Assembly (NCBI RefSeq): GCF_026210795.1
Contig: NC_089438.1
Span: 372,001-436,000, forward strand
DNA: 64,000 nucleotides
Reading direction: 5' to 3'
Source of the DNA: Rhizophagus irregularis
Lineage: Eukaryota > Glomeromycota > Glomeromycetes > Glomerales > Glomeraceae
The position numbers were made by a program, and so were the translations under genes. The notes below the pieces were generated by a model. It had not been told where the DNA came from. It saw only the letters and a list, made by a program, of their open reading frames with translations, and did not search any database. Shown piece after piece: positions 2,670 to 53,056 of this stretch. Within the stretch, counting starts at the first letter, position 1. Every line of letters starts with the position of its first letter.

Positions 2670-3527
2670 ATGGCTCTTAAAAGAATTAATAAAGTATGTC
2701 ATAATTCATCTTTCGTAGATGAGCTTTTTTTCAATTGTAACTAATTAATTTATTCCTTTTTTTTCCTTTACATATATATTATTAGGAATTGTATGATTTA
2801 GGTATTGACCCACCGTCAACTTTTAGTGCTGGTCCTATCGATGATGATCTTTTCCATTGGCAAGCGTCAATTATAGGTCCTGTAAGTAATATTTTACCAC
2901 TTTTAAACTACATGTGTAAAGATTATAATAACTTTTACTTGAATGTTACGGTATAATTTTGATTAGAGTTATACTTCATATTCCGGAGGTATATTTCATC
3001 TTGATATTCGTTTTCCTAGTGATTATCCATTCAGACCACCAACGGTATACTTTTGCTTGTATATTTGTTTAATAGCATGATTCACGCACTAAATTTTTTA
3101 TATATACAGGTGAAGTTTACAACAAGAATCTATCATCCGAATATTACTGATAATGGAAGTATAGACGTGGATTTCTTAAGGGACCTATGGTCACCAGCAA
3201 TTACCATCACTAAGGGTAATAATAATTTATTATGAGTATATGTGGAATTTTTTATTATAAAAAAAAATACTAATCAAATCTTTTATTCTATCAAGTACTC
3301 TCGGGAATTTGTTCATTGTTGAGTGATCCAAACCCAGGTATTATAATTCACTTTTTCATATTCTTTATTTATTGAATGATCTGATTAATTTCAACTAAAA
3401 ATAATTTATCAATAAATTAGAATGTGATATAATGCCCGAAATATCTCAATTGTACAAGACTGATCGTAATCGTTATGAAGCCACTGTTAGGGAATGGACT
3501 CGTAAATATGCTAGTGAGACATTATAA
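2670..3527 (+). CDS. E2-like protein lacking the catalytic cysteine (copy 2)
   Basis: Six exons (2670-2693, 2786-2881, 2967-3044, 3110-3215, 3296-3337, 3421-3527) sum to 453 bases and encode 150 residues, the usual length of a UBC4/5-class E2. All introns are GT..AG. Seen: MALKRINK start, '[14 protein letters not shown]', 'DYPFRPP', '[10 protein letters not shown]' with the HPN motif at 75-77, 'SPAITITK', 'CSLLSDPNP', 'REWTRKYA'. Known of the family: ubiquitin is carried as a thioester on Cys85 in the 'NGSICLDIL' context. Here that residue is Asp (codon GAC, 'NGSIDVDFL'), so thioester chemistry should be impossible. The intact frame and splice sites argue for a functional UEV-like or decoy protein rather than a pseudogene. 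It could instead be a very young pseudogene. Fold assignment is secure; the role is inference. Confidence 0.85.
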
Positions 3528-4139
3528 GATTTTTCTTTATTAACATTTTTATTATTTAAATTTTATTATCTAAACCCGTACATGTCCATTTAATGTCTTA
3601 TTTTTAATATACTTTTCTTAAATTTAAATGTAATTATTGTTCAAATGAATCTAAAATATCTTGGTATAAAAAGAAAAGTTATTGAATATTTAAACGAGTG
3701 GAAAATAAATTAAATTCCATATGAAATGTGAAATTTATATATTACTAGATAGTTATGTTATTTAAAGGTAGATTGAAAATGAGGCGCAGCCTAAAAAACT
3801 ATCAGCCCAACCAAAACGTTTATTATGCACAATAATTAATAAATACATTGAGTGGAATATTGGCAGTAGCAAATATATCACAGTTTTACATTTAAACGAC
3901 CAAATAATAATCATCAAATAAGAATAAAAAAAAATTTAAAATCTTTATTTATATAGAATATTCATAAACATAAAATCCAATAAATCTACTGTATATATAC
4001 TATAATATACTATGTAAACAAAAAACTAAAGACAATAATTTATAAAGCATAATGAAAGAAAAATAAAAATAAATCTAATTTCAACAGACAAACTAGTAAT
4101 TCAAACTATTGGATTCTGACTTTCACATAAAAGAGAACT
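3528..4139. other. Convergent intergenic spacer
   Basis: AT-rich DNA between the 3' ends of E2-like copy 2 (+) and a kinase pseudogene (-). It probably holds both 3' UTRs. No gene or repeat was recognised. Confidence 0.5.
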
Positions 4140-6061
4140 TCATTCAATATTATGTTCACTATCTTGACAAATTTCATTTAGTTCTATAAAAAATACATAT
4201 ACTGTAAATTAGAAAGGAAATATTAGTAAAATTACAAATAAATAATAACTTACCCAATTCACTTAATTGAACATCTAAGCATTCTGAAACTGTATATTAT
4301 GTATTTAAATGTTAACAAATGTAAATAAAATAATTACAATAATGATAATTAAGAGAATACTTACTTGGATTTGCTGACGTTGATTGAACAGTATAATTAT
4401 TATCTGTTTAAAAATATGACATAAATAATGTAAAATGGATTATATGATAAAACAAAATTAAATTTAATTACCCGAACTGAAATGACAAGATGATAAATCT
4501 GAAGAATTTACTGGTTTTGGAAGATTTTTAAAATTTAAAAGTCTACTAATATAAAATGCTTGTGGGTGTGTTTGAAAGCTTTTGGATTTATCTTCATTTG
4601 ATCTGTTTTTGAAATTTCTTTTCTAATTTTATCACATTCTTTTATTTGAAAATATATTTCACTATTTTGACTATTGTCACCATCTTTATTATCTTCGCTA
4701 TTTTTACTATATTCACTAATTTCATCATTCCATTCATTTAGTGTTTGATACAACTCTTTAGTGGTTGGTCCATTTTTTATTTCAGCATTCCAACATTTTA
4801 CTATCAAATCTGCAAGTAACTTTGGTACACCTTCAGAAATTGTTGGTCTAAGTCCTTTACATATTTTAATAGCTAAAAATTCATCATGAGGAATATCATT
4901 AAAAGGAATTTCTTCAGAAAGAAATTCATTCATTACTATTCCAAATGAGTAAATATCTGCTGCTTTTGTATATTGGTATCCACGTAAAACTTCTGGTGCC
5001 ATATATATATGGTAATACTCCATAAATTCCTTCTTCTTTAGCTGATTGCTTTATATTTGCTGGTTGACACATACCTAAATCACTTATAAATGGATAATAA
5101 TCATTAAATAATATATTACCCGAATAAAAATATTTGTGAACTTTTTCAACATTATGAATATCCAAAAGTCCTCTTGCAATTTGTTGTAATTTATCAATTT
5201 TTGATTTATAATTGATATAATTTTTAGATCTATTTAAATAATTTCTCAAATTTCCAATTTCACAATAATATAAAACCATCATATACTCTTTATTATTTAG
5301 ATCTTGAGTAATTCCATAACATTGAACAATATCATTAATATAAATCTGAAGATGAGATTTAATCTAATTATCATCAAAAAGGAAAAATTTTATTAATAAC
5401 TGAAATAAATGAAAATAACAACAATCCTTATATATAAGACAAAGTTTAAATTACCTCATTTAAAAAATCTGAACATATATCAGAAGAATTATACGAACTT
5501 TTTAATGCATATTTCTTATAAATAAATCTATACCACTTTTGATTTTCAATATCCCAATATTTAATATGTCCTTCAGGCCATTCTGCTGAATAAATCTTAC
5601 CATAACCACCTTCTGCAATATAAGTGACATTTTGAAATTTTTCAAAAGGTATCCATTCAAGACATGTTTTATAATGTATAGCATTAAGTTGTGATTGTTG
5701 TATAAATTCATCAATATGTTTATTTCCACTAGTCCAATTTTTAAAGTTATTCTTAAATCTTTTAGCATTACAAGATTGACACCATTTTTCTCCTGTACCA
5801 GGTTCATTACATTCTCCACATATTCCATATGCTTGTCTTCTTTTTTCTAAATCTTCTATATAAACTATACTTTCATCTACATTTTCTGATTCAATAGTTG
5901 AACCAATAGTAGAAATTGTAACATGATACTTTTTAATATACAAATAATTATTAATGTTTTTAACTACAAAAATCCAATAGTAATTATTAAAAATGTTAAA
6001 TTGCTATTACCTGATATTTATTATCAACATTCTTCCATAAAATTTTTGGTTTTTCATCCAT
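4140..6061 (-). pseudogene. TKL-type protein kinase pseudogene (kinase 1)
   Basis: The exon layout matches the intact kinase at 47.2 kb. A 17-codon first exon (6011-6061) starts 'MDEKPKILW'. It is followed by 5455-5928, 4472-5363 and three small tail exons (4365-4403, 4254-4289, 4140-4183). Exon 2 carries the CGEC..WCQSC zinc-ribbon-like segment, 'NWTSGN' and the Gly loop 'EGGYGKIY'. The gene is damaged. 'TATA' units near 5003 (expected 'LPYMAPE') add 4 bases and shift the frame, and a second shift before about 4575 restores it. The catalytic-loop Asp is Tyr ('VHKYFYSGN'), and the conserved Arg of the C-lobe 'RPT' is Gly. Kinase activity is very unlikely. The close match to the other kinases of the window shows recent family expansion. 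Confidence 0.85.
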
Positions 6062-52126: not shown

Positions 52127-52182
52127 TAAAAAATAAAAAACATTATATAAATCATTAAAAATAAACGAGATTTTCAAAACTT

Positions 52183-53056
52183 TTAATTAAAGGTCATATA
52201 ATCACCCATAGCATATTTACGAGTCCATTCCCTGACAGTAGCTTCATAACGAGCACGATCATTCTTGTATAGATTTGATATTTCGAGTGAACCACAATCT
52301 AAGTCCATTATTAAATTATTTGAGTTGAATATAAAATGTGGAGATGACGACATTATATAATATACCTGGATTTGGATCGGTCAAGAATGAACAAATCGAC
52401 AAGAGTACTTGATAAAATAAAAGATTTGATTAAGATTAATGTTTATTAGAATGTGATCCAATTTTTTTTAAAATTACATTTTGAGATAGAAAGTCCTGGC
52501 GACCAATGTTGTCTTAAAATATCCAAGTCTATATTTCCATTACTATCGATATTTGGATGATAGATTTTTGTTGTAAACATAATCTAGTAATATAAATGAG
52601 TAAGTATATAATTGAAATTTACGATACTGTATATATGACAATCATACCCTTGGTGGTTTAAATGGATAATCTGTTGGAATTTGAATATCAAGGAAAAATA
52701 CACCACCTTCATATGGAGAATCAAGCTAATAAATTTTAATATCAAAGAAAAATAGTTGAATTAAATTAGCCATATATCTCTACGCATTTGTAATACGACA
52801 AAAAAAAAATACATACAGGACCCATAATTGTTGCTTTCCAATGTAAAAGATCATCTCCAACAGGACCGGCACTAATAAGTGGAAGTGGATCTCTTATCAT
52901 ATTGTGCAATTGCTAACAAAATATACATAGTAAATAAAAGGAGAATAAATTAATTAGTATCTTATCCAAAAAACGTAGTCGAGAATAAAAAAACTCATAT
53001 AAAGTAAAATTGTAAATAAAATAATAATATACTTTATTAATGGATTTAAGTGCCAT
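52183..53056 (-). CDS. E2-like protein lacking the catalytic cysteine (copy 4)
   Basis: Six exons on - (53033-53056, 52817-52912, 52648-52725, 52478-52583, 52366-52407, 52183-52298) sum to 462 bases, 153 residues, with the same five intron positions as copies 2 and 3. Seen: MALKSINK, '[18 protein letters not shown]', '[20 protein letters not shown]', '[10 protein letters not shown]' (HPN kept), 'SPGLSISK', 'CSFLTDPNP', 'REWTRKYAM'. Position 85 is Asp (GAC) in '[10 protein letters not shown]' instead of Cys. The canonical E2 ends at 'KYAM'; here eight more residues follow before TAA. The hAT fragment starts only ~57 bases downstream on the same strand. Frame and splice sites are intact, so a folded but non-catalytic E2 is expected. 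Confidence 0.86.

Follow-up and report, generated by a model that had tools for sequence, protein, structure and literature searches.

Repeated loss of the catalytic cysteine in a UBC4/5-derived E2 family of Rhizophagus irregularis, and a predicted E2-BED-hAT junction in some of its members

Proteins with the fold of ubiquitin-conjugating (E2) enzymes that have lost the catalytic cysteine are, to our knowledge, mostly single ancient proteins (Mms2, TSG101, COP10). Here we describe a family of E2-like genes of the UBC4/5 (UBE2D) type in the genome of Rhizophagus irregularis (assembly GCF_026210795.1), four copies of which lie in a 64-kb stretch of contig NC_089438.1 (C10:372001-436000), referred to throughout as the window. 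Analysis of the genome showed that members with and without the catalytic Cys85 occur side by side and that, under the tree model used, the cysteine was lost repeatedly. On balance, the sequences suggest that the family includes repeatedly arisen, UBC4/5-derived pseudo-E2s, partly kept by selection as binding partners, with a subset that would form doubly dead E2-transposase genes.

The family resembles UBC4/5 enzymes in fold, in length, in the HPN motif, W93 and P95, and in matching the Pfam profile UQ_con, but differs in that 14 of 25 intact copies have Gly, Ser, Asp or Asn in place of Cys85. An E2-like fold without the catalytic Cys is shared with the ubiquitin E2 variants (UEVs: Mms2/Uev1, the TSG101 UEV domain). 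UEVs of the Mms2/TSG101 type lack the HPN motif and the C-terminal E2 helices, whereas the present proteins are full-length, of UBC4/5 type and with HPN, and originated from UBC4/5 several times within a single genome. UEV membership was considered but not supported: the UEV profile PF05743 was listed for copy 4 of the window only, below its cut-off (E = 0.00038, 20.8 bits, cut-off 27), and not for copies 2 and 3; HPN was present, and the UQ_con match ran to position 139 of 140. Plant COP10, a single conserved gene, likewise encodes a Cys-less E2 variant. In one study, COP10 is described as forming complexes with other E2s, DDB1A and DET1, and a UEV group nests inside the UBC4/5 subfamily (PMC4659669). 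The Cys-less copies of R. irregularis are also nested in UBC4/5, as found in a tree of the genome's own copies without a COP10 sequence, and differ from COP10 in being many lineage copies with several losses.

Two further comparisons are relevant. C85 mutants of UBE2D/UbcH5 serve as laboratory dominant negatives. One copy described here, L020, carries Ser85 and shares 95% identity with the UBC4/5 gene of the same genome (L055); unlike those mutants it occurs naturally, encoded in the genome, and its tail is altered. DAYSLEEPER is a domesticated hAT protein. Host-transposase fusions and domesticated hATs share with the subset described below the BED-like and hAT dimerisation parts, the loss of a catalytic residue and an open reading frame (ORF) under purifying selection; the N-terminal partner here differs in being an E2 module. 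A literature search naming both E2 and hAT found no such pairing, and neither the expansion nor the fusion was named in the titles and abstract openings searched, or found by term in PMC10234402, PMC11075540 and PMC12062965.

E2-like copies in the window and across the genome

Gene models were built using a custom spliced aligner (GT-AG introns, BLOSUM62). The window copies, numbered 1 to 4 (W1-W4), are as follows.

416-1240, plus strand: copy 1, E2-like, decayed; residue 85 is Gly (GGC at 899-901)
2670-3527, plus strand: copy 2, intact six-exon E2-like gene, 150 amino acids; residue 85 is Asp (GAC at 3164-3166)
33576-34449, plus strand: copy 3, intact six-exon E2-like gene, 151 amino acids, with F62L; residue 85 is Gly (GGC at 34080-34082)
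52183-53056, minus strand: copy 4, E2-like exons 1-6 intact, with R5S; residue 85 is Asp (GAC on the minus strand, 52527-52529)

These copies had been proposed in a preliminary description made from the window alone, and all four proved real, with introns shared in spliced alignment, HPN and no Cys at residue 85. Introns in copies 2, 3 and 4 fall after residues 8, 40 and 66 (phase 0) and within codons 102 and 116 (phase 1). UQ_con matched these copies with E = 5e-44, 4e-45 and 1e-43, over profile positions 1-139, 1-139 and 2-139 of 140, respectively. Three copies are intact as proposed, with spliced models of 150, 151 and 153 residues; the last is the product of copy 4 with intron 6 retained, which ends in a stop at 52183-52185. 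That end is not obligatory: the E2 exons of copy 4 were confirmed, and in-frame BED-like and hAT sequence lies beyond the sixth intron. The best spliced alignment of copy 1 contains two in-frame stops and three frameshifts, and its first intron site lacks GT; copy 1 is a pseudogene. Among the E2-like members of the window, copy 3 is the best maintained. Its best solved-structure matches carry the names Ubc4 (E2 4) and UBE2D, and it is 82% identical to L055. The proposed closeness to an active UBC5 thus applies to copy 3, and less so to copies 2 and 4 (73% and 72%). A motif, GCATTTACRYG, was seen upstream of copies 1, 2 and 4 and was not obvious in the other copies inspected.

The genome (146,748,485 bases, 32 contigs) was searched using UQ_con (81 exon-level matches), three copies as DNA, and the parent protein (at least 155 matches). 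Every place from the three DNA searches was modelled, together with the UBC4/5-like places from the UQ_con and protein searches; protein-search places left unmodelled were at most 40% identical, among the matches listed. The resulting counts are lower bounds. At least 25 UBC4/5 paralogs that share the five introns were intact, copies 2-4 among them (intact refers to the E2 core), along with at least some 19 decayed or fragmentary loci. Fifteen of the 25 lie on C10, at about 180-710 kb. L025 and L037, which are UBC4/5-like with Cys and differ in intron positions, were not counted.

Tabulation of residue 85 across these paralogs contradicted the proposal that the whole family lacks Cys. Cys85 is kept in 11 of the 25 intact copies (L003, L007, L013, L014, L015, L017, L021, L022, L023, L028 and L055) and absent in 14, with five Ser, five Gly, three Asp and one Asn.

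Ser85: L005, L006, L008, L012, L020
Gly85: L001, L010, L019, L026, copy 3
Asp85: L004, copy 2, copy 4
Asn85: L029

A frameshift falls among the last few residues of L020, and three residues are inserted next to Cys85 in L013. The alignments of L001, L010, L014, L019 and L026 lacked Met1, with an in-frame ATG 5-19 codons upstream. The likely parent of the family is L055 on C4, a canonical UBC4/5 gene with Cys85, an intron 1 of about 459 bases and a branch ratio of non-synonymous to synonymous substitution (dN/dS) of 0.01. Introns are kept in the copies, which therefore arose via DNA duplication. In a Gly85 sub-clade (L001 and L019 on C10, L026 on C5) an in-frame N-terminal extension precedes the E2 start, and L001 and L026 share K8V. 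Exons 1-2 of L003 (KRIIKETER...) appear by eye nearer to the UBC13-like gene L036 than to UBC4/5; exon exchange is possible.

A tree was built from codon-aligned DNA of 35 rows (25 intact copies, eight decayed copies and the two outgroups L025 and L037), with codon 85 excluded. L016, L042, L044, L045, L047-L050 and L052-L054, being too broken, short or unreadable, were dropped from the tree and from the codon fits, as was L036; the outgroups were left out of the codon fits. On this tree, six states at residue 85 called for 11 or more changes, and the contrast of Cys with non-Cys for 7. If Cys was never regained (Dollo), there were eight losses on the best tree and 6-10 across 1000 bootstrap trees, the exact number being uncertain given weak inner nodes and possible gene conversion. 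Six of the eight loss groups include an intact copy, copies 1-4 of the window fall in four different groups, and Cys-bearing copies interleave with Cys-less ones. Ser codons were also considered as a sign of separate losses. L020 carries TCC and the other Ser copies AGC, yet L020 is nested among the AGC copies; this evidence was left unused because tree and codon conflict.

The count at residue 85 is not unusual by itself, since 31 of 148 sites changed as often or more on the intact tree, where residue 85 changed 8 times. Comparison was made with 10 of 12 fetched non-family E2s, L030 and L040 being excluded for poor active-site alignment. Eight sites, Cys85 included, carry the parent residue in all 10 of these other Cys-bearing E2s of the genome. 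The remaining seven, P61, P65, H75, N77, G82, L89 and W93, changed 0, 0, 0, 0, 1, 0 and 0 times in the family; general relaxation would be expected to affect them too. E2-like places outside the comparison include C19:1144188, C30:1868235, C3:1836435, C16:3301895, C21:2236518 and C27:405312.

The predicted E2-BED-hAT junction

Beyond its E2 exons, copy 4 is followed on the same strand by these features.

52108-52205, minus strand: predicted sixth intron of copy 4, 98 bases long and of phase 1, with donor GTGATT and acceptor AATAAG
51842-52107, minus strand: BED-like finger exon (C..C...H...H), 3' end approximate, without a Met upstream of the finger-opening MVC
50131-51753, minus strand: hAT transposase-like part of copy 4, start approximate, with PF05699 (Dimer_Tnp_hAT) in its last ORF

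The last ORF matched PF05699 with E = 8e-11 (42 bits, cut-off 21.4). A frame change near 51427 and an in-frame TAG at 51310-51312 disrupt the hAT part, and copy 4 could therefore make E2 plus finger only. The same E2-finger-hAT layout follows L003, L007, L008, L010 and the broken L048, and a partial one follows L050. It was not matched downstream of 18 other intact copies (over 3.0-3.6 kb; 1.7 kb for L014) or of copies 1-3 in the window. Inside the broken hAT of the L050 copy, or immediately beyond it (L085:948-1832), are frames that by eye resemble a retroelement integrase.

Predicted intron 6 has the same position, is of phase 1 and is in frame from E2 to finger in all five copies with an intact E2. 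The acceptor is AATAAG in each, and the donors are as follows.

Copy 4: GTGATT
L003: GTGAGT
L007: GTAAAT
L008: GTAAGT
L010: GTAAGT

L003, L007, L008 and L010 gave open E2-BED-hAT models with introns 7 and 8 (phase 0), of 726 residues for L007 and 740 for L008. A fusion aligner, with a query from L008/L062, placed other junctions for L003 and copy 4 and, in L010, a change of frame adjoining intron 8; among enumerated alternatives, L003 and L010 were open piece by piece, and copy 4 at junction 6 only. The E2-linked finger exons show the C..C...H...H pattern; against zf-BED the E2-less relative L081 scored only 15.0 bits (cut-off 20.6), and this profile was not listed for copy 4.

The hAT parts were compared with their relatives in the genome. 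The six hATs nearest the query (61-100% identical) are all E2-linked, and the next long matches are at most 50% identical, among the 130 of 353 candidates scored. In four E2-less hATs that were fetched, no E2 match was found in about 1.8-1.9 kb upstream of the finger. The TTDN motif, whose Asp we take to be the second catalytic Asp of the RNase H triad, is intact in 4 of 4 E2-less relatives and reads TTTN, TTNN or TTIN in all six readable E2-linked hATs (TTNN in copy 4); L085 was unreadable at this place. Across the five copies with open frames, dN/dS of the hAT part was 0.38 (twice the log-likelihood difference, 2dL, 64.9 against a ratio of 1), and each was below 1 singly (p 0.03 or less). 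The hAT tree pairs copy 4 with L007 and L008 with L010. The E2 tree differs, which suggests shuffling or conversion inside the cluster.

The junction could be mere neighbourhood, with an E2 gene and a hAT relic co-duplicated as separate genes. Retention of intron 6 leads to a stop within a few codons and an E2 of normal length, and the hAT and E2 trees conflict, as would suit such an arrangement. The donors of L007, L008 and L010 fall in codons of the E2 tail that have counterparts of the same kind in copies without the fusion, L012 and L022 for example, so that the junction could have arisen cheaply. The hAT of L048 is, moreover, constrained beside a broken E2. Phase, frame and acceptor are, on the other hand, the same in five of five copies, and a hAT part that is catalytically dead is still constrained. 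No Met occurs upstream of the finger-opening M[VI]C (IVC in L008) in any of the 7 E2-linked loci, compared with two of the four E2-less relatives (present in L081 and L083, absent in L082 and L084, both disrupted). Taken together, these data make mere neighbourhood a somewhat unlikely explanation.

Constraint on the Cys-less copies

To examine selection, we fitted our own implementation of a branch-class codon model (F3x4, 147 codons). For intact Cys-less copies, dN/dS on terminal branches was 0.345 (2dL 80.6 against 1), not different from the 0.40 of Cys copies (2dL 52.0; p = 0.35) and lower than the 0.51 of decayed copies (2dL 22.9; p = 0.027); internal branches had 0.24. With decayed copies excluded, the 16 branches lying strictly after an inferred loss gave 0.331 (2dL 105.7 against 1), compared with 0.341 for 26 Cys-bearing branches including inner ones (p = 0.8), an assignment that hinges on the tree and on no regain of Cys. 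These results support purifying selection on the intact Cys-less copies as a class. Taken singly, five of the 14 rejected a ratio of 1, namely L001 (0.14), L008 (0.20), copy 3 (0.23), L026 (0.25) and L006 (0.31). The earlier suggestion that such copies are kept without catalysis was therefore borne out for the class (0.33-0.35), and for individual copies in these five cases only. Within the window it holds for copy 3 and not for copy 4 (0.51) or copy 2 (1.2), neither of which differs from 1. The near relatives of copy 2 (L031, L041-L045) are all decayed; its maintenance is doubtful, and it may be on its way to becoming a pseudogene.

An ordinary birth-and-death process, in which Cys is lost early, decay follows and the intact Cys-less copies are functionless young pseudogenes, is an unlikely account of these data. 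It draws on the roughly 19 decayed copies and fragments alongside the 25 intact ones, copy 1 among them, on the state of copy 2 and its clade, on the many copies that do not reject 1 singly, and on a decayed average that is itself only 0.51. Post-loss branches are, however, as constrained as Cys-bearing ones, the low ratios of L001 and L026 occur within a clade sharing Gly85, and Cys85 changed eight times while the other universal E2 sites hardly changed.

Residues of the E2 surface were then compared between classes, with functional roles of interface and gate-loop residues as we assume them to be. K4, P61, W93, P95, H75, P76 and N77 are kept in all 14 intact Cys-less copies, and D87 in 13; the HPN motif (Asn77) is thus present in 14 of 14. 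Apart from P76 (9 of 11), the Cys copies likewise retain P61, W93, P95 and HPN, which are thus no signature by themselves.

By analogy with UEVs for UBC13, or with plant COP10, the Cys-less copies might assist an active E2 rather than block it. The complexes of COP10 with other E2s, DDB1A and DET1 and the nesting of a UEV group in UBC4/5 (PMC4659669) would fit such a role, as would a reference title within PMC7215765 that has COP10 enhancing E2 activity. No single derived surface common to the Cys-less copies was found, and we consider a helper role improbable. Least probable by far, and rejected under the model used, is a single ancestral Cys loss with later duplication, which the preliminary description had drawn from the one-base difference between GGC and GAC: small Cys-less clades do exist (L001/L019/L026/L027; L005/L006/L010/L020/L046/W3; the copy 2 clade), but one clade for all Cys-less rows cost 79 log units (approximately unbiased (AU) test, p = 0.000393) and one clade for copies 1-4 cost 228 (AU p = 0.000105), and Cys-bearing copies are interleaved on the tree.

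Neighbouring features and the proposed explanation

The window contains further features beside the E2-like copies.

4535-6003, minus strand: kinase-like gene
9313-10817, minus strand: kinase-like gene
15963-17129, plus strand: gene with BACK and TLDc domains (PF07707, PF07534)
29273-30966, minus strand: two DUF3684 ORFs (PF12449, E = 3e-88 and 8e-31)
37123-38506, plus strand: kinase-like gene
40194-42746, plus strand: open frame of 850 residues, no family assigned
47323-48687, plus strand: kinase-like gene
55800-57175, minus strand: kinase-like gene

The ORF at 55800, the sole kinase-like ORF scanned, contains a kinase domain (PF07714, E = 6e-35). The HRD-type catalytic-loop motif reads IHRD, VHKD and VHKD in three of the kinase-like genes and is altered in two, VHKNFHSGN (55800-56618) and VHKYFYSGN (4926-5363); some neighbours therefore also resemble pseudokinases. 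ORFs at 27325-28910 (minus strand) may share a gene with the DUF3684 ORFs. Just downstream of copy 3, at 34820-34980, an inverted-repeat-like sequence whose ends are repeated (ttattcggcacgaagtgccgaataa) may be a small mobile element.

For the E2 family, we propose that the housekeeping UBC4/5 gene L055 was duplicated with its introns, mainly into the C10 cluster, and that the catalytic Cys would then have given way to Gly, Ser, Asp or Asn about eight times, with the E2 fold under purifying selection. Since the fold appears constrained despite these losses, many of the intact Cys-less copies are most likely working pseudo-E2s, in which the Cys-thioester cycle would be absent and parts of the UBC4/5 surface would remain. 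Such proteins might compete for, or scaffold, ubiquitin ligases (E3s), ubiquitin or active E2s. Ser85 copies are in principle chargeable as a slowly discharged oxyester, trapping partners; Gly, Asp and Asn copies would not be chargeable at residue 85. In the subset that includes copy 4, the E2 module is predicted to be the N-terminal part of a longer gene that, after splicing, runs in frame into a BED-like finger and a hAT transposase that is catalytically dead, which could carry the E2 surface to DNA or allow dimerisation. That the Cys-less copies are expressed, spliced as modelled, bind partners and function in this way we infer from their sequences.

Several observations weigh against this explanation. 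Intactness was itself the criterion by which copies were selected, and nine of the 14 Cys-less copies do not reject a ratio of 1 singly (L029, L020, L010, copy 4, L012, L005, copy 2, L004 and L019), some of them on very short branches. Two of eight decayed copies (copy 1 and L002) do reject it, as does the decayed class, and earlier constraint therefore lingers in these estimates. In the tree, inner nodes are weak, with 13 of 32 branches open, and gene conversion may have moved residue 85, given the conflict between the hAT and E2 trees. The hAT of L048 has the lowest dN/dS (0.33) despite an E2 broken by an insertion, and the copy 4 hAT, itself broken, does not differ from the open ones (2dL 0.15). 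A uniform E3 decoy is also poorly matched by the interface: R5 or F62 is altered in 6 of 14 Cys-less and 1 of 11 Cys-bearing copies (Fisher p = 0.09), and the gate-loop residue D117 is retained in 5 of 14 compared with 7 of 11. The altered copies are as follows.

Cys-less: copy 3 (F62L), copy 4 (R5S), L004 (R5S), L019 (both residues), L026 (F62W), L029 (F62L)
Cys-bearing: L003 (F62M)

A general E3-decoy signature was therefore rejected, there being no clear enrichment in Cys-less copies and the R5/F62 changes leaning the opposite way. Decoys or regulators that bind E3 or ubiquitin are possible, and judged by these residues a simple E3 decoy would fit copy 2, L001, L005, L006, L008, L010, L012 and L020 better than copy 3 or copy 4. 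A bolder version of the pseudo-E2 reading, which we put forward tentatively, is that selection repeatedly and specifically removed Cys85 to give a tunable repertoire of E2s acting as dominant negatives or scaffolds, one branch of which, joined to a dead BED-like/hAT transposase, would be doubly dead chimeras, devoid of E2 catalysis and of transposition, that place the E2 surface, and hence E3s or ubiquitin, on DNA.

The family presents many natural losses of one catalytic Cys in a constrained-looking fold, beside Cys-bearing sisters and within a single genome. It thus offers a replicated natural test of what E2s do apart from catalysis. Should the predicted splicing of the E2-BED-hAT genes hold, a transposase would have been captured by the ubiquitin system, probably in an obligate plant symbiont.

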